This document shows positions 2,389-11,344 of a stretch of DNA of 64,000 bases, in pieces; the first letter of the stretch is position 1, and every line of letters begins with the position of its first letter. The DNA is taken from NCBI RefSeq assembly GCF_014490665.1, contig NZ_CP061038.1, positions 1,550,001 through 1,614,000 of the forward strand. Reading direction: 5' to 3'. Both the position numbers and the translations under genes were made by a program. Source of the stretch: Sphingomonas alpina (GTDB lineage Bacteria > Pseudomonadota > Alphaproteobacteria > Sphingomonadales > Sphingomonadaceae). The notes below the pieces were generated by a model. The model worked only from the letters and a program-made list of their open reading frames with translations, was not told the origin of the DNA and searched no databases.

Positions 2389-3234
2389 ATGCGCCTCGCA
2401 CTCGACGCCCGCGCGCGCCGTATCCTTCGGCGGCTACCGCGCACCACTGTCTATTCGGCGCTCGAGCTTCTGCTGCTCGCGGTGCTGGCGGTGCAGTGCG
2501 CGCGGCTCTTGTGGGTGATCGTCACGCCGGTCGGTCCGCTCGGGAACTGGAAGCCGGCCGAACCCGGTACGATCGGCTCACCCGCGGCGATCCTACGCGG
2601 GTTCGATCCCTTTTTCCGGCTGAGTGCGGGCGGCGACGGCAAGCCGGCGGTGGTCACCTCGTTGCAGATCACGCTGTTCGGCACGCGGATCGACGAAGCG
2701 GTCGGCGGCGGCTCGGCGATCGTCGCCGGCCCCGACGGCGTGCAGCAAAGCGTGGCTGTCGGTGGCGAGATCATGCCCGGCGTGAAATTGAAAGCGGTCG
2801 CGTTCGATCATATCACGATCGACCGTGGCGGCGCCGAGGAGGACCTGTTTCTCGATCAATCCGGCGCGGTCGAAACCGTAGCACCGACCGCCTCTGCGGC
2901 TGGCAGCGGCCCGAACCCGGCTGCAGCCCCTGGCGGGATCGGGTCTCGCGTCACGACTTTTGCCCAGGTCCAGTCGGATATCGGCTTTATCCCGCGTGTC
3001 GATGGTGGTCGCGTGACCGGCCTCGTCGTGCGCTCGCAGGGGTCTGGCGCCGCGTTTCGTGCCGCCAATCTGCGCGATGGTGATATCGTCACCGCGATTG
3101 GCGGTCGCGCGGTCACCGGTCAGGGCGACATCGAACGCATTGCCGGGCAGTTCGCAGGTGGGGGCAATCTGCCGCTGACCGTCGAGCGGGGCAACACCAC
3201 CATTCCTCTTGTCATCTCGATAGCGAGCCAATGA
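2389..3234 (+). CDS. gspC: Type II secretion system protein GspC
   Basis: This 281-residue inner-membrane component links the outer-membrane secretin to the inner-membrane platform. There is a membrane anchor at about residues 20-45 (ELLLLAVLAVQCARLLWVI). The homology region that contacts GspD follows at about residues 60-165, then a Pro/Ala-rich linker. A PDZ domain occupies about residues 195-280 (SGAAFRAANLRDGDIVTAIGG). It is first in the gsp operon, and its stop overlaps the start of gspD by four bases. Length and domain order are normal for the family. Confidence 0.9.
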   Translation: MRLALDARARRILRRLPRTTVYSALELLLLAVLAVQCARLLWVIVTPVGPLGNWKPAEPGTIGSPAAILRGFDPFFRLSAGGDGKPAVVTSLQITLFGTRIDEAVGGGSAIVAGPDGVQQSVAVGGEIMPGVKLKAVAFDHITIDRGGAEEDLFLDQSGAVETVAPTASAAGSGPNPAAAPGGIGSRVTTFAQVQSDIGFIPRVDGGRVTGLVVRSQGSGAAFRAANLRDGDIVTAIGGRAVTGQGDIERIAGQFAGGGNLPLTVERGNTTIPLVISIASQ

Positions 3235-5441
3235 AAAAACTGATCCTCGCACCTGTTCTTGCGTGCCTGCTCGCCGGGCCGATTCTCGCGCAAACCACAT
3301 TGAACGTGCGCGATGCGGATATCCGCGCGTTCATCGCCGATGCCGCCAAGGTGACGGGGCGGACCTTCATTATCGATAGCCGGGTGCAGGGCAAGGTGAC
3401 GGTAGTGACCGACCGCCCCCTGAGCCGGTCCGAATATTTCGAGGTCTTCCTGTCGACCCTGCGTGCCAACGGGCTGGTCGCGGTGCCGACATCCAACGGC
3501 GCGCTCCGCGTGCAGCCGATCGACAACGCCGCATCGCAGCCGAGCCGGGTGGGATCGCGCGGTGCATCACGCAACAGCTTCGTGACCGAGGTGATCCGTT
3601 TGCGCTCGATCGATTCCGCCTCCGCTGTGGAAACGGTGCGCGCGCTGGTCAGCCCGCAAGGCTCGGTCACTGCCAATCGCGGTGGCAATTCGATCGTCGT
3701 GGTCGATTTCGCCGACAATGTCCGCCGGGTGCGCGAAGTGCTGCGCCAGATCGATACCGACAATGCCTCGACCCGGGTCGTCGCGCTGAAGAATGCCGGC
3801 GCGCGCGAAATCGCCAGCGCATTGCAGGCGCTGATCGGTACGGGCGGGCAGGGTGGCCAGGGAGCCGCGACCGGGCCCAGCGCGACGGTGGTCGCCATTA
3901 CCAGTTCCAACTCAATCGCGCTGCGCGGCGACGGCGCCACGGTTGCGCGGCTCGCCGCCGTGGCGGAGGATCTCGACAAGCGGGCGAAGAACGGCACCGA
4001 AATTCGCGTCATTTTCCTCGAAAATGCCGATGCCGAACAATTGCTGCCAGTGCTGCAACAGCTTGTCGGCCAGACGCCGACTCAGCCGACGTCGAACAAT
4101 ACCAATACTCTATCCCGCTCGAATTTCGGCGGAACCGCGGCGAACGGGCAGAACAACAGCAACAATGCCGAGCCACCCCGGCAGCAACAATCAGCTCCGG
4201 CCGCGGGCGGGGGACCGGCGAGGCCGCGATCGTTGCCGAGGGGGGCCGCACTGCATCGGTCATCACTCGCTTCGCTGGAGCCAATGCGATCGTCATCGCC
4301 GCGCCGGCGGAGGTGCAGCGCCAGTTGAATGAGGTGGTGCGGCAGCTCGATACGCGGCGCGAGCAGGTGCTGGTCGAAGCGATCGTCGCTGAAGTGTCGG
4401 ATGCGACCGCCAACAAGCTCGGCGTGCAATTCCTGCTCGCCGGATTGCCCGGCAGCGGCGTGCCTACCTTCGCTACCAGCTTCAGCAATTCGGCCCCCAA
4501 TCTGTTGACCATCGCCGGCGCGATCGGCGCGCGGCAGCTGAACACCACGACCACCACGGTCAACGGCACGACCGTCACAACGTCGACCAACAGCGCGGTC
4601 AGCGATTCTGCTTGCCCAGTCGGCGATCAATTCGATCCTCGGCGCGAGTGGCGGTTTTGGCGGCGGCGCGTTCAATATCGGCAAGAATGCGATTTTCGGA
4701 TCGATCATCAATGCGGTGAAATCCGACACCACCTCGAACCTGCTTCAGGCGCCGTCGCTGACTACGCTCGACAATCAGCCGGCGCGGATCCTGGTCGGTC
4801 AGGAAATTCCGATCACTACTGGTCAGCAGCTGTCGACCAATTTCGACAATGCCTTCCGCACGGTGCAGCGTGAAAATGTCGGCATTCAGCTTGAAGTGCG
4901 GCCGCAGGTGAATTCGAGCGGCACGATCAAGCTGTTTCTGCACCAGCAGGTCAGTTCGATCGCCGGGCCGGTGTCGAGCGACAATAGCGACCTGATCCTC
5001 AACAAGCGCGAAGTGGAAACGACGCTGACGGTCGATGACGGCCAGATCGCGATCATTGGCGGGCTGCTCAGCGACGATGAGCGCCGCACGATCGAGAAGA
5101 TCCCGCTGCTGGGCGACTTGCCGGGGATCGGCGCCCTGTTCCGCTCCAAGGCCAAGCAGCGCACCAAGACCAATTTGATGATCTTCATCCGCCCGACCGT
5201 CCTGCGCACGCCCGAGGACACGCGGCGCGTCACCGAGCAGCGCTATGGCTATCTGCGCCTGCAACAGGCGGGCCAGGCACCCAATCAGGAGCCGAGCATC
5301 GATGAGCTGGTGCGCGACTATATGGGCGCCGCGCCGCCGATCCCCTCGGCGCCGACGCCAGGCAATATCGAGGATCCACGCATCACCGTGCCGATCATGC
5401 GCAACTCGACCAAACCCTTGAAGCCGCAGGGAGAACGATGA
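3231..5441 (+). CDS. gspD: Type II secretion secretin GspD, with two apparent frameshifts
   Basis: This is the outer-membrane channel of the type II system. A signal peptide (ends ILAQT) is followed by the N0 and N1-N3 domains and the secretin domain (EIPITTG, VGIQLEVRPQV, TTLTVDDGQIAIIGGLL, PLLGDLPGIGALFR, NLMIFIRPTVLR). The reading frame breaks twice. In the G run 4209-4213 one G seems missing (five seen, six expected), and at about 4607 one T seems extra. The middle part (about 4214-4607) is coded in the -1 frame and the end returns to the first frame. Joined, the protein is about 735 residues and complete. The stop overlaps the gspE start (ATGA). Confidence 0.88.
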
Positions 5442-7033: not shown

Positions 7034-8253
7034 TTTCGACTATCTGGTGATCGATACGGCCGGCCGCGAGGTCCGTGGACATATTGCCGCCGATACGATC
7101 GATGATGCACGTGACCGGCTCGACCGCAAGCGCTTCCATGTCGTGAAGATCGAGGCGGGCACTGGCGGCCCCGCACGCGGCAAGCCATTGCTTTCCGACT
7201 TTCGCCTCGGGCGTCGCAAGATGAGCGTGAAGCAGCTTACGCTCTTCACGCGTCAGCTGGCGACGCTCAATCAGGTATCGCCGCTGGAGGAATCGCTCCG
7301 CACCATCACCCGCCAGACCGAGCAGGAATCGGTCCGCACGATCGTCGCCAGCGTCCATGCCGGCGTCATGGAGGGGCGGCGGCTCGCCGAAGCCATGGGG
7401 CGAGAGCCGAAAAGCTTCCCGCCGCTCTACCGCGCGATGGTCGCAGCCGGTGAGCGATCGGGCTCGTTGCCGACCATTCTCGACCGTCTGTCGATCCTGC
7501 TCGAGCGCCAGGCCGAGATCAGCGGCAAGATCGTCACCACTCTGGCCTATCCTACCGTGCTGGCAGTGGTGGCCATGGGTGTGGTGACCGCCTTGATGGC
7601 CTTTGTCGTGCCGCAGGTAGTCGAACAGTTCGACAATGTCGGGCAGCAACTCCCGTTGCTCACGCGCCTCGTCATTGGTCTGTCGGATTTGCTCGTTGGC
7701 TATTGGTGGGCCATGCTGCTCGCCGTCGCGCTGATAAGCCTGATCTGCTGGCAGGCGCTCAAGCAGCCGTCGATCCGGCTCGCGTTCGACGGTTGGCTGC
7801 TGCGCATTCCACTGCTCGGCAGATTGCTGCGTGATCTCCACGCGGCGCGCATGGCGCGTACGCTGGCCACCATGGTCGCGAGCCGCCTGCCCTTGCTGGA
7901 AGGGCTCACTTTGACCGCCGGCACGATCCACAATCGCCGCTTGCGCGCCGCATCGGACGAGATCGTCGAGATCGATCCGCGGCGGCGGCAGTCTGTCCGC
8001 GGCAATGCGCCGCGCCGGCGTCTTTCCGCCGCTGCTGACCTATCTTGCCGCATCGGGCGAATCGGCGGGCAAGCTCGACGAGATGCTCGAACGCGCTGCC
8101 GACTATCTCGAACGCGAGTTCGACCGCTTCACCGCGACCGCTTTGTCGCTGCTCGAGCCCGCGATCATCGTCGTCATGGGCGGTATCGTTGCGACGATCG
8201 TGCTATCCATTCTGCTGCCGATCCTGCAGCTCAACACCCTGGCTGGACAATGA
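7026..8253 (+). CDS. gspF: Type II secretion platform protein GspF, with one apparent frameshift
   Basis: This polytopic inner-membrane protein couples GspE to the pseudopilus. Two repeated T2SSF domains are visible, with membrane segments at about residues 171-196 and 221-240 and near the C-terminus (IIVVMGGIVATIVLSILLP). The frame changes near 7971: the first frame runs on as nonsense to 8267, while the true C-terminal half (MRRAGVFPPLLTYLAASGES onward) is in the +1 frame and ends at TGA 8251-8253. One extra base at about 7971 explains it. Joined, the length is about 408 residues, normal for GspF. Confidence 0.88.
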
Positions 8254-8335
8254 GGGCCGGACAATGAGGAAGATCATGACTACCGACCCGCAAACCGCCG
8301 CCCGCAAACGCCGCCATCGGGAAGGATGTGCGCCG

Positions 8336-8794
8336 GTGAAGCGTTCCGCCGAACACGGCTTCACCCCCGTGAGGCGTTCCGCCGAACACGGCTTCACATT
8401 GGTTGAGCTGATGGTGGTGATCGTCATTCTCGGCCTGCTCGCGACGATCGTCGCGCTTAATGTGATCCCGCAGGGCGAGCGCGCCAAGTCGGAAAAAGCC
8501 AAGGCCGATATCGCGACGATCGAGAATGGCCTGGAACTCTACAAGCTCAACCTGTCGAACTACCCGACCACGTCGCAGGGGCTGGCGGCGCTGCTCAATG
8601 CACCGGCCGATCTTGGCGACCCGTCGCGCTACCAGAAGGGCGGCTATATCAAGAAGCTGCCCGACGACCCCTGGGGACGTCCTTACCTCTATGCCTCGCC
8701 GGGCACGCATGGCGACACCGATATCTGGACTTTTGGTGCGGACGGGAAAGAAGGCGGCGAGGGAGCCGATGCCGATATCGGCAGCTGGCAGTGA
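8336..8794 (+). CDS. gspG: Major pseudopilin GspG with a tandemly duplicated leader
   Basis: This is the main subunit of the type II pseudopilus. The mature part starts at Phe of G^FTLVELMVVIVILG and has the GspG C-terminal pattern (DDPWGRPYLYASPG, FGADGKEGG). The leader is duplicated: 11 codons (8336-8368 and 8369-8401, VKRSAEHGFTP then VRRSAEHGFTL), so a second G-F-T lies upstream of the real cleavage site. I chose GTG 8336 because GAAGGA lies nine bases upstream and it gives the same architecture as gspH and gspJ. ATG 8264 is an in-frame alternative, and GTG 8369 would give an ordinary short leader. From 8336 the product is 152 residues. Confidence 0.9.
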   Translation: MKRSAEHGFTPVRRSAEHGFTLVELMVVIVILGLLATIVALNVIPQGERAKSEKAKADIATIENGLELYKLNLSNYPTTSQGLAALLNAPADLGDPSRYQKGGYIKKLPDDPWGRPYLYASPGTHGDTDIWTFGADGKEGGEGADADIGSWQ

Positions 8795-8818
8795 CTTGGT
8801 CTTAAGAGGAGCTTTCTC

Positions 8819-9298
8819 TTGAGACGTTTCGCCGAACACGGCTTCACACCCGTGAGGCGTTTCGCCGAACACGGCTTCACACTGGTCGAGCTGATGATCG
8901 TCATCACGATCATCGGGCTGGCATCGGCTGTCGTCGTGCTGGCGATCCCCGATCCGCGCGGCCGGCTGATCGACGACGCGACGCGCTTCGCGGCGCGCGC
9001 GCGCGCCGCGCATGATTCGGCGATCGTCGAGGCGCGGCCGGTGAGTATCTGGATTTCCGGTGGCGGTTATGGTTTCGACACGCGGAGCCGCGGTACCTGG
9101 CAGCCGATCAGCGAAAAGCCGTTCAAGGTGGCGCGCTGGGCCGACGGCGTCACGCCGGTACTGAGCGGCGACCGCGATCGGGTCGTGTTCGATTCGACTG
9201 GCCTTGCGGATCGTTCGTTCGATGTCCGCCTGACCCGCGATGGCGAGAGCACGATCGTGCGGATCGGCGCTGATGGTTCGGTCAAAGTCGATGGCTGA
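8819..9298 (+). CDS. gspH: Pseudopilin GspH with a duplicated leader, TTG start
   Basis: A minor pseudopilin of 159 residues. The start is TTG 8819, supported by AGGAG about seven bases upstream. The leader consists of two 11-residue copies (RRFAEHGFTP, RRFAEHGFTL) before the cleavage site and hydrophobic N-terminus (TLVELMIVITIIGLASAVVV). The two copies share a Phe codon (TTC) where gspG and gspJ have Ser (TCC), so they match each other better than they match the sister genes. That is a sign of local duplication or conversion. The C-terminal globular part has the GspH pattern (GEPVSIW-like ARPVSIWISGGGYGF). The stop overlaps the gspI start region. Confidence 0.9.
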   Translation: MRRFAEHGFTPVRRFAEHGFTLVELMIVITIIGLASAVVVLAIPDPRGRLIDDATRFAARARAAHDSAIVEARPVSIWISGGGYGFDTRSRGTWQPISEKPFKVARWADGVTPVLSGDRDRVVFDSTGLADRSFDVRLTRDGESTIVRIGADGSVKVDG

Positions 9299-9710
9299 CA
9301 GGCTTCCAATCACTCGCTCCACCTCTTCGCGGCGTTCCGCCGAACGCGGCTTCACGCTGATCGAGATGATGGTGGCGCTTGCGGTGTTCAGTCTCGCTGC
9401 GCTGGCGCTGATCCGTCTGGAAGGGGCGACGATCCGCGGTGCGGGGATGCTCGATTCTGCGCTGACCGCCCAGATGGTCGCGCGCAATGTCGCGATCGAA
9501 GCATTGAGCGACTCTCGCCCGCCTGCGATCGGCCAGGCCCGGGGCGTCGAGCAGAATGGCGGCCGCAGCTGGGGCTGGACGCGCGTGACTCGTCCGACCG
9601 GCGACACGCGCATCCTGCGCATCGACGTCTCGGTCGCGGATACGGCAGGGCAGGTGCAGGGACGATTGACCGTGGTGCGCCCGGCTTCCTTGCCCGGGGC
9701 GTCGTCATGA
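9291..9710 (+). CDS. gspI: Pseudopilin GspI
   Basis: A minor pseudopilin of 139 residues that, with GspJ and GspK, caps the pseudopilus. It starts at ATG 9291 inside the end of gspH. The leader is MADRLPITRSTSSRRSAERG, then F-T-L-I-E-M-M-V-A-L with the conserved Glu at +5. Only a single copy of the RSAExGFT unit is present, unlike gspG, H and J. The C-terminal part has the GspI features (WGWTRVTRPTGDTRILRIDV). It overlaps gspJ by four bases. Confidence 0.9.
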   Translation: MADRLPITRSTSSRRSAERGFTLIEMMVALAVFSLAALALIRLEGATIRGAGMLDSALTAQMVARNVAIEALSDSRPPAIGQARGVEQNGGRSWGWTRVTRPTGDTRILRIDVSVADTAGQVQGRLTVVRPASLPGASS

Positions 9711-10369
9711 GACGTTCCGCCGAACACGGCTTCACGCCCGTGAGGCGTTCCGCCGAACACGGCTTCACGCTGGTCGAGTTGATGATCTCCTTCCTGATCT
9801 TCGGCATGCTCGCCTCGGCGGGCGTTGCCTTGCTGTCATTCAGCGTGCGGGCGCAGGGCGTGACCGGGGCACGGCTCGACGATGTCGGCGCGTTGAGCCG
9901 CCTGTCATCGGCGCTGTCGGCCGATTTCGCCCAGGCCTCTTTCCGCACGACGCGCAACGAGGCGGGCGACGTCTTGCCCGCCTTCACTGGAGAATCCGGC
10001 TCGGGAACGACGCCGATGCTGCGTCTCGTGCGCGGCGGCTGGAGCAATCTCGATCGGGCCCGCCGCGCGAGCGAGCAGAAGGTCGAATATCGGCTTGCCG
10101 ACGGTAATATCGAACGCATCTCCTTTCCGATGCTCGATGGCGCCGAACCGTTGGCCCCGGCCGTGCTGCTGAGCGACGTGCGTCAAGTGTCCCTGCGTTA
10201 TCGGATCAACGGTGCATGGAGCGATGTCTGGCAGGGCAGCGCCAGGTCGCCGCTCCCGCAAGTGGTCGAAATGCGGCTGGTCCGCGGCAACGGCACTGAG
10301 TTCCGCCAGCTTTTCCTGGTCGGGGCCGGCTATGCGCCCAAGGGGCTGGAGACCGGCAATGGCGGCTGA
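9707..10369 (+). CDS. gspJ: Pseudopilin GspJ with a duplicated leader
   Basis: A minor pseudopilin of 220 residues. The N-terminus again has two leader copies (9707-9739 and 9740-9772, RRSAEHGFTP then RRSAEHGFTL) before the hydrophobic segment (LVELMISFLIFGMLASAGVA). The body fits GspJ (LRLVRGGWSNLDRARRAS, EYRLADGNIERISFPMLDG). The start ATG occupies the same place in the repeat unit as GTG in gspG and TTG in gspH. The stop lies inside the start region of gspK. Confidence 0.92.
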   Translation: MRRSAEHGFTPVRRSAEHGFTLVELMISFLIFGMLASAGVALLSFSVRAQGVTGARLDDVGALSRLSSALSADFAQASFRTTRNEAGDVLPAFTGESGSGTTPMLRLVRGGWSNLDRARRASEQKVEYRLADGNIERISFPMLDGAEPLAPAVLLSDVRQVSLRYRINGAWSDVWQGSARSPLPQVVEMRLVRGNGTEFRQLFLVGAGYAPKGLETGNGG

Positions 10370-11344
10370 TCGAGGCTCCGAGCGGGGGCGGCATTGTTGA
10401 CCGTGCTGCTGCTGGTCGCAGTCATCTCGGTGCTCGCCGCGACCGCATTGGAGAAGCTGCGCCTTGCGACCCGGCTCTCCGGCAATGCCGCCGCAACCGA
10501 GCAGGCGCGCGCCTATGCCTATGCCGCCGAAACGCTGGCGCTGACCAAGGTCACCGACCTGCTCGGGCGCGATGCGGCGCGAGTGACGCTGGCGGGCGGA
10601 TGGAGCGGAAAGCCGTTCCCGCTGCCGGTGCCCGGCGGCATGGCCACTGCGCGCGTCCGCGATGGCGGTAATTGCTTCAATCTCAATGGCCTGGTTGTCG
10701 AAACCGAGCCCCGCATCTATGCCGCCTACACGCCCGCCCGCTTGCAGTTCGCGCGCCTGATGCGGCTGGTCGGCGTATCCGCGCAACTCGCCGTGCCGAT
10801 CGCCGACGCGGCGTCCGACTGGATCGACAGCGATACCTATCCGTTGCCAGCCGGGGCGGAGGATTCCGTCTATCTCGGCGCGGAGACACCATATCGCACG
10901 GCCAACACGTTAATGGCGGATCCGAGCGAATTGCGCGCGGTGTCCGGGGTCACGCCCGAAATCTATGCGAAGATTCGCCCCTGGCTCTGCACGCTGCCGA
11001 TCGCCAAGCCTTCGACGATCAACATCAACACGCTGCTGCCGGAACAGGCGCCGCTGTTTGCCATGTTGCTGCCCGAAACGCTGAGTGTCGAAGGTGCGCG
11101 GCAATTGCTGTTGAAACGGCCGCCCCAAGGCTATGAGAGCACGGTCGCGTTCTGGAAGCTGCCGTCGTTGACCGCGATCACGCCATCCCCGGATGCGCTT
11201 GCTCAAACGGCGGTTACGACGCACTGGTTCGCGCTCGATGTGGACGTGACCTTGGGTGGGGCGGAATTGGAACAGCAATCGACGATCGATGCGACGACCT
11301 TGCCCGCGCGGCTCGTGTCGCGGCAATGGGGTGAGCGGTCATGA
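10359..11344 (+). CDS. gspK: Pseudopilus tip protein GspK, start region frameshifted
   Basis: This is the large minor pseudopilin at the tip. The open frame visible from 10394 begins abruptly at LLTVLLLVAVISVLAAT, without a leader. ATG 10359, overlapping the end of gspJ, gives MAADRGSERG in another frame. Adding one G to the run of five at 10384-10388 joins them into a normal leader ERG-A-ALLTVLLLV. I therefore annotate from 10359 with a one-base deletion in the G run. The body has the GspK pattern (DWIDSDTYPLPAGAEDSVY, ININTLLPEQAPLFAMLLP). Without the correction, TTG 10394 would give a product with no leader. Confidence 0.85.

Follow-up and report, generated by a model that had tools for sequence, protein, structure and literature searches.

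How did the same short piece of coding DNA come to stand in the leaders of four neighbouring pseudopilin genes? The question is raised by a 64,000-nt stretch of Sphingomonas alpina (NZ_CP061038.1, positions 1,550,001 to 1,614,000; hereafter the window), where a type II secretion operon that begins at gspC (2389) carries 33-nt units in gspG, gspH, gspI and gspJ. An earlier note on this DNA had read them as tandem duplications of the prepilin leader. We consider it probable instead that the arrays are a coding minisatellite that lives, tolerated, in the cleaved leader of the type II secretion pseudopilins of Sphingomonadaceae. Sequence comparison establishes the position, frame and turnover of the units, their sharing within a genome and their conservation as DNA.

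The unit consists of a variable spacer of about 10 nt and a 23-nt core, CGTTYCGCCGAACACGGCTTCAC, whose last bases, GGCTTCAC, encode the prepilin-peptidase site Gly|Phe-Thr. In the window the core lies at 8342, 8375, 8825, 8858, 9713 and 9746 and, with one mismatch, in gspI at 9333. These three unit pairs and the single related gspI unit stand where the earlier note had placed them, all seven cores on the + strand and with a period of 33 nt inside each pair, against none in each of 100 shuffles of the window. The gspH copies carry TTC and the gspG and gspJ copies TCC, as had been noticed. Across the 5.2-Mb, one-contig genome the degenerate core pattern is matched exactly by those seven copies, and the search for the unit outside the gsp genes that had been proposed, now run, found no further core copy within two mismatches; one more place appears at three mismatches, and a reversed-pattern control likewise gave one match within three mismatches. 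A dispersed genomic repeat is thus ruled out for the core in its own genome, where it occurs only in gsp genes within two mismatches. The genome's only matches to PF07963 (prepilin N-terminal motif) at E<=0.001 are the window gspG, gspH, gspI and gspJ, and therefore all genes so recognised carry the unit. GspK is a prepilin-peptidase substrate too, and the core search of the window found no unit in gspK. Two prepilin peptidase (A24) matches are located elsewhere in the genome.

We then compared leaders that differ by whole units. In ERG5, the nearest relative (93% identity over concatenated mature proteins), GspG reads ...RRREE-GFT-LVEL, and in the window it reads ...RRHRE-GCA-PVKRSAEHGFT-PVRRSAEHGFT-LVEL, 66 bp longer than ERG5. 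Read codon by codon (placed by hand, as the aligner split the gap), the extra 66 bp lie exactly between GFT and LVE, and the native GFT is now GCA: positions 8324-8332 read GGA TGT GCG (Gly-Cys-Ala), where ERG5 has GGC TTT ACT (Gly-Phe-Thr), and the two units occupy 8333..8398 on the + strand. Tandem duplication of the prepilin leader, as it had been claimed, is contradicted here, since gspG keeps its native leader (8264..8332, +) upstream, with two units between it and LVEL. Nor does GspG seem to begin with the unit, at GTG 8336: the open reading frame is open upstream, and ATG 8264 or 8276 is the likely start because ERG5 gspG has that stretch too, so that the leader would comprise 39-43 residues with the two units at its end. 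The gspI genes of two other relatives, L053 and L059, differ by exactly one clean 33-bp unit, with mature DNA 94.6% identical over 390 nt, and the spacer of the extra L053 unit is unlike the resident leader, which again opposes duplication of that leader. In the two cleanest empty/filled pairs, whole units thus stand in frame between the native Gly-Phe-Thr and Leu-(Val/Ile)-Glu, so that the last unit replaces the processing site. Close relatives also differ in gspJ (four units in ERG5 and three in P0052, with 100% identical mature protein) and in GspG, where L041 and L058 have identical mature protein over the part compared, with five units versus one weak unit-like end. The leader alignments of L041/L058, L043/L051 and L056/L081 are gappier, still with whole extra units. 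To the earlier question of whether the duplication is fixed in relatives, alignment therefore answers no: copy number differs among them.

The same placement holds throughout the relatives. Of 308 cores (>=18/23, 81 loci), 306 lie in frame in a prepilin leader, and neighbouring cores are spaced by 33 nt in 150 of 156 cases (36 nt in four, 30 nt in one and 89 nt in one). In 35 arrays the outermost member matches at <=17/23; it stands in register above the units and is either a worn unit or the end of the native leader. Of these 35, 15 still read GFT, as in RKRQREEGFT. As to whether entry requires GGCTTCAC, this sequence is present in 95 of 155 innermost leaders without a unit and in 121 of 143 with one, but an inserted unit brings the site along with it. 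A start codon in every unit, which had been noted for the window copies, is not general: GTG, TTG or ATG stands at that place in 104 of 304 units of the loci. At 7233 (0-based) of L094, a perfect core of a Gln-Gln variant lies outside any leader frame, beside an apparent dispersed repeat, and is perhaps an array interrupted by an insertion. Unrelated insertions were seen as well: around 5932-6082 of L099 a palindromic repeat with 58 matches in its genome (some of these places counted on both strands) lies in frame in the gspG leader, and other palindromic repeats are read in frame in the H and I leaders of L148. The pseudopilin leader seems to be a general landing place for DNA.

How widely and how variably the unit occurs was assessed by a GspG scan that retained 80 loci among 145 relatives, most of them under the names Sphingomonas and Sphingobium; the loci were found by six peptide patterns, one of them EHGFTLVE, so that prevalence among them is biased upwards. 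Copy counts cover these 80 loci and the window at a lenient cut of 14/23, at which a native leader end keeping GFT can count as one, and 13 prepilin genes outside the class rules were left out of them. L050, the same strain as L048, was kept in the copy counts, the start-codon count, the codon usage and the mature-protein pair comparison and dropped from the analyses of RSAEHGF codons, divergence, innermost-leader classes, spacers, covariation, tree, outermost members and wobble positions; the core-placement analysis kept it in its first part and dropped it in its second. Counts of the 11-codon unit (xxRRSAEHGFT) in a G, H, I or J gene run from 0 to 7 and vary with the species among the 80 loci, with seven a lower bound set by a contig end that cuts the L048 gspG array. 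Two or more units occur in 27/80 G, 25/76 H, 14/74 I and 26/71 J genes. ERG5 has no inserted unit in G (native leader end only), five in H, one in I and four in J, and units are present in three genes (G, H and J) of the complete QA11 chromosome. In S. laterariae each of the four genes carries an array, and one of its contigs starts inside an array. Two of its contigs, L145 and L146, share 1740 identical overlapping bases and both break in arrays; they give 4 versus >=7 units in gspG, so an assembly loop is possible, and 140 bases of the gspJ array recur without a difference in the gspG array.

Pattern searches outlined the range of the core. At up to two mismatches, 38 of the 151 genus genomes searched contain it, and multiple matches in a genome always share a single contig, within about 2 kb; one of these genomes (G142) also has one control match. 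Eight stretches drawn from seven match-rich genomes all had the units in pseudopilin leaders. A stricter pattern finds the core in 24 of 298 family genomes, in 14 of 96 genera, and in none of 380 genomes of other families of the class (385 examined, five of them own-family). A phage origin was rejected, with no core match in phages, as was a plasmid origin, the sole match being a 30-nt partial one (93%) on a Caballeronia plasmid. The ERG5 leader region was also used in a protein search, which detects only proteins with shared 5-residue words and similar length. Of 6008 candidates scored, 467 were hits at E up to 0.1; among the 120 hits listed, all but five have a precomputed prepilin N-terminal domain. 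Ten listed proteins that were unlike plain G/H/I/J or had no Pfam domain were scanned, of which P0002 matched nothing and four gave weak, below-cutoff XpsH/XpsI matches: in P0024, P0028, P0029 and P0090, units stand before divergent pseudopilins. That units belong to a second type of type II secretion system was rejected, as four likely P0028 orthologues among 249 family genomes (G294, G396, G197 and G189) match only from residue 40-48, without units in the match. In P0081 and P0083, the same array leader precedes a GspG body and a GspJ body, respectively, which could reflect gene exchange, fusion by recombination between arrays or a metagenome chimera.

The spacers record how units are shared. 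Comparing 168 units in 89 arrays of 52 genomes, we found spacers in the same array to be 0.774 identical, those in different genes of a genome 0.629, and those of different genomes 0.50, for the same gene or different genes, against a composition expectation of 0.507. Arrays are thus partly homogenised, units are shared across the genes of a genome more than by orthology, and the suggestion that duplication or conversion acted within genes is supported. On a tree of 74 operons, the minimum number of changes of tandem state was 17 for G, 17 for H, 9 for I and 18 for J, values reached or undercut in 3, 20, 0 and 19 of 200 shuffles, and a near-perfect innermost core changed 13 (G), 22 (H), 12 (I) and 21 (J) times, with 0, 45, 0 and 49 of 200 shuffles as low. 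From these shuffles it follows that G and I keep some inheritance and H and J hardly any.

The core is conserved as DNA rather than as peptide alone. We selected, by protein only, 157 RSAEHGF stretches from 59 of 80 loci (79 fetched and the window); all lie in prepilin leaders, and 101 of them share an identical 21-mer. GCG is never used for Ala in these stretches, nor TCG or AGC for Ser, whereas in the mature parts of the same genes GCG, TCG and AGC make up 61%, 42% and 40% of the codons of their residue. Codon optimality was rejected as the cause, as CGT, TCC and GAA run contrary to the codon usage of the same genes. Among 298 innermost leaders, the 81 that read RSAEHGF have a wobble identity of 0.83-0.87 in the unit, against 0.63-0.66 over the next nine codons where residues are identical, and the former range is alike within a genus, between Sphingomonas and Sphingobium, for the same gene and for different genes. 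Core wobble identity is independent of divergence (r = -0.02, 2887 pairs), with the 24 closest pairs alone standing out at 0.89. Innermost leaders are either background-like or near-perfect, and few lie in between, as replacement rather than drift would predict; 155 of the 298 match the core at <=9/15 positions. An RNA hairpin was rejected as the cause of this conservation: relative to synonymous shuffles, folding gave z of -0.5 to -1.0 in five of seven constructs and positive values in two, with +0.34 for window H, +0.66 for window J and -0.79 for the 33-nt unit, which shows no marked palindromic structure. The folds made with DNA parameters had no control. The palindrome that had been noted in the unit is accordingly no stronger than in synonymous versions of its peptide, and a role for it in translation is not supported.

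Prepilin leaders are hydrophilic and cytoplasmic and are cut beside a hydrophobic stretch, with the peptidase active site near the membrane (PMC10191384, PMC4471445). The leaders here have the features of this class (class III), being hydrophilic with a Gly end followed by a hydrophobic stretch with Glu5. The earlier note had allowed that the extra Gly/Phe-Thr site is cut, which appears doubtful: outer copies read GFTPVRR or similar and are not followed by a hydrophobic stretch, and GFT is missing from 45 of 88 outermost copies. GFT is kept in 43/88 outermost and 57/79 middle copies, Gly-Phe in 74/88 and 75/79, and GFT in 89/89 innermost copies, the last largely by construction. We infer that only the innermost Gly would be cut, so that inserted units would be removed with the leader. 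Cleavage in the window is predicted after the Gly codons at 8390-8392 (GspG), 8873-8875 (GspH) and 9761-9763 (GspJ), all on the + strand, and if the innermost Gly is cut the leaders would measure 39-43 (G), 19 (H), 20 (I) and 19 (J) residues. A 2014 review gives leader lengths of 6-26 residues, and about 15-30 for type IVb prepilins (PMC4471445).

These observations suggest a route by which such arrays could arise. Recombination or template switching would bring in new copies where genes share GGCTTCAC and resemble each other at the mature start, with another pseudopilin gene or incoming DNA as the source, and slippage within arrays would alter copy number. With the last unit supplying the processing site and the innermost Gly alone cut, an array would be cheap and hence tolerated. 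Because GGCTTCAC bounds the unit on both sides, this route would account for the exact position and frame of the units and for their confinement to prepilin genes. Several points weigh against the tolerated minisatellite. Neither the copying step nor, for any event, a donor was seen. Spacers of different genomes resemble each other only as much as composition predicts, which gives whole-unit transfer between species no direct support, and the tandem state of G and I clusters on the tree and is thus partly inherited. Simple recombination does not account for the slower change of the core relative to the spacer; the core bases may be kept by a need for homology between units or by some sequence-level function. 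Core positions 9 and 14, which have the highest mutual information (GC 93, CG 13 and GT 12 of 133 distinct cores), covary as a GCCG/CGGC stem would, and likewise as a dipeptide variant would; the pair is also the change from Glu-His to Gln-Gln, which may go back to one ancestor. The R-S-A-E-H codons depart from consensus in 8.8% of first/second-position and 14.8% of wobble cells (our arithmetic, on units preselected at 17/23), and the unit peptide may thus be under some selection. Finally, with frameshifts in gspD and gspF, the secretion system of this strain may be non-functional, or the assembly may have indels.

A more active role for the DNA is a tentative proposal, which we regard as possible: the 33-nt unit would be a site-specific selfish element in its own right, for which the prepilin processing codons are both boundary and landing site. 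It would spread among pseudopilin genes and across species, and removal of its product by the peptidase would hide it from selection. That the unit works at the sequence level, as a protein- or RNA-binding site or an mRNA hairpin whose copies form a regulatory dial on pseudopilin synthesis, we judge unlikely. Wobble bases kept far beyond codon usage, irrespective of relatedness, and the fit of positions 9 and 14 to a stem would agree with it; the many genes without a unit, the unremarkable folding and the possible single ancestry of the dipeptide variant do not. Selection for the arrays as peptide, with longer, positively charged leaders altering targeting, topology or the timing of processing, seems to us rather improbable. 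Many units add two Arg, the first and second codon positions of the core vary less than the wobble positions, and G, H, I, J and some divergent pseudopilins have the peptide in common; such selection would not fix wobble bases, however, and close relatives with identical mature proteins differ by whole units, with the outer GFT decaying.

That each gene simply duplicated its own resident leader in tandem, independently of the others, is very unlikely as a general account. In H and J of the window the outer unit starts at the start codon, so that a doubled leader could still describe those two genes, and arrays are often homogeneous. Against it stand the native G leader of different sequence upstream of the units, the 15 poorly matching outermost members that keep GFT and are otherwise unlike units, and the L053 gspI spacer, absent from the resident leader. 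An assembly artefact can hardly be the explanation, even with the frameshifted gspD and gspF and a S. laterariae assembly that breaks inside an array: RSAEHGF leaders were found in 59/80 loci, and in the complete QA11 chromosome three of the genes have units.

A search of the full-text literature, including for the letters RSAEHGF, found no description of the unit, with results judged mostly by title. Four known kinds of repeat come closest to it. Variable-number tandem repeats inside coding genes are a general known kind, and the unit is likewise head-to-tail with a fixed 33-nt period and an in-frame copy number that changes between close relatives; unlike them, it occurs as the same unit in four paralogous genes across many genera, beside a processing site that it regenerates, with the mature protein untouched. 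Repetitive extragenic palindromic (REP) elements with REP-associated tyrosine (Y1) transposases (RAYTs) are also short, partly palindromic units with a conserved core. The present unit differs in being undispersed in its own genome, which also lacks a Y1 transposase: PF01797 was found in 0 of 1 own genome, with the control found in 5 of 14 genomes, and a REP/RAYT origin was rejected. Rickettsia palindromic coding elements are likewise short, inserted in frame in protein-coding genes and encode a conserved peptide; they are about 150 bp long and scattered in unrelated genes, in contrast to a tandem 33-bp unit at one site in one protein class (PMC10969869). Scattering of that kind was not seen, either in the own genome, where the unit is confined to gsp genes, or among the gsp-centred loci, where 306/308 cores are in prepilin leaders. 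Palindromic amphipathic repeat coding elements (PARCELs) are also tandem repeats within genes that vary in number, are patchily distributed and are suspected of being shuffled inside genomes and transferred; they have a 25-residue motif, occur in various open reading frames of distant clades and are reported to show a dyad symmetry absent from randomised sequence (PMC2996958). The Sphingomonas unit, by contrast, encodes 11 residues rather than a 25-residue amphipathic motif, was found in the cleaved prepilin leaders of a single family, and its folding is no stronger than that of synonymous variants. What sets it apart from minisatellites, Rickettsia elements and PARCELs is the single kind of site, at a processing point that the unit rebuilds.

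The leader thus appears as a place where coding DNA comes and goes freely with the mature protein untouched, and which a repeat exploits across a bacterial family. Across the relatives, near-identical pseudopilins carry leaders that range from about 19 residues up to several tens (start codons unmapped), a natural series that makes testable what leader length Sec, the signal recognition particle and prepilin peptidase tolerate. For annotation, start-site calls can misplace these N-termini, and for assembly, such an array stands at a contig break.

The units lie within otherwise recognisable genes, all on the + strand. Pfam matches cover gspC, gspD (two of three pieces), gspE, gspF, gspG, gspH, gspI and gspJ. 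The major pseudopilin gene gspG spans 8276..8794 (T2SSG 5.6e-39, N_methyl). In gspH (8819..9298; GspH 2.6e-06, N_methyl) the leader at 8819..8884 consists of two units, MRRFAEHGFT and PVRRFAEHGFT, followed by Leu, from start TTG 8819. The gspI gene (9291..9710; T2SSI 9.4e-17 on 9240-9707) has its leader at 9291..9350 with one related unit, RRSAERGFT (core 9333-9355); from ATG 9291, a start of our own calling, it has about 20 residues and ends in RRSAERG. The GspJ start ATG 9707 overlaps the gspI stop, and the leader at 9707..9772 again consists of two units, MRRSAEHGFT and PVRRSAEHGFT, then Leu, in a gene of 9707..10369 (T2SSJ 3.2e-32).

Elsewhere in the locus, several frames are disturbed. 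At 7960-7975, gspF has one extra base relative to both ERG5 and QA11 and its frame is shifted, making it a pseudogene or marking an assembly indel. The secretin gene gspD (3231-5441) is spread over three frames (open reading frames 3231-4328, 4313-4873 and 4716-5441), the first with N0/secretin_N and the last with the secretin domain. The frame also appears broken at 10380-10395, just before the listed gspK frame (10394), with a one-base gap in the QA11 alignment. The gspF-gspG junction (8241-8268) contains a 14-bp imperfect direct repeat (GGCTGGACAATGAG / GGCCGGACAATGAG) that is single-copy in ERG5, and at 3875743-3876174 the S. alpina genome encodes a reverse-transcriptase domain (PF00078) in a 649-residue open frame.

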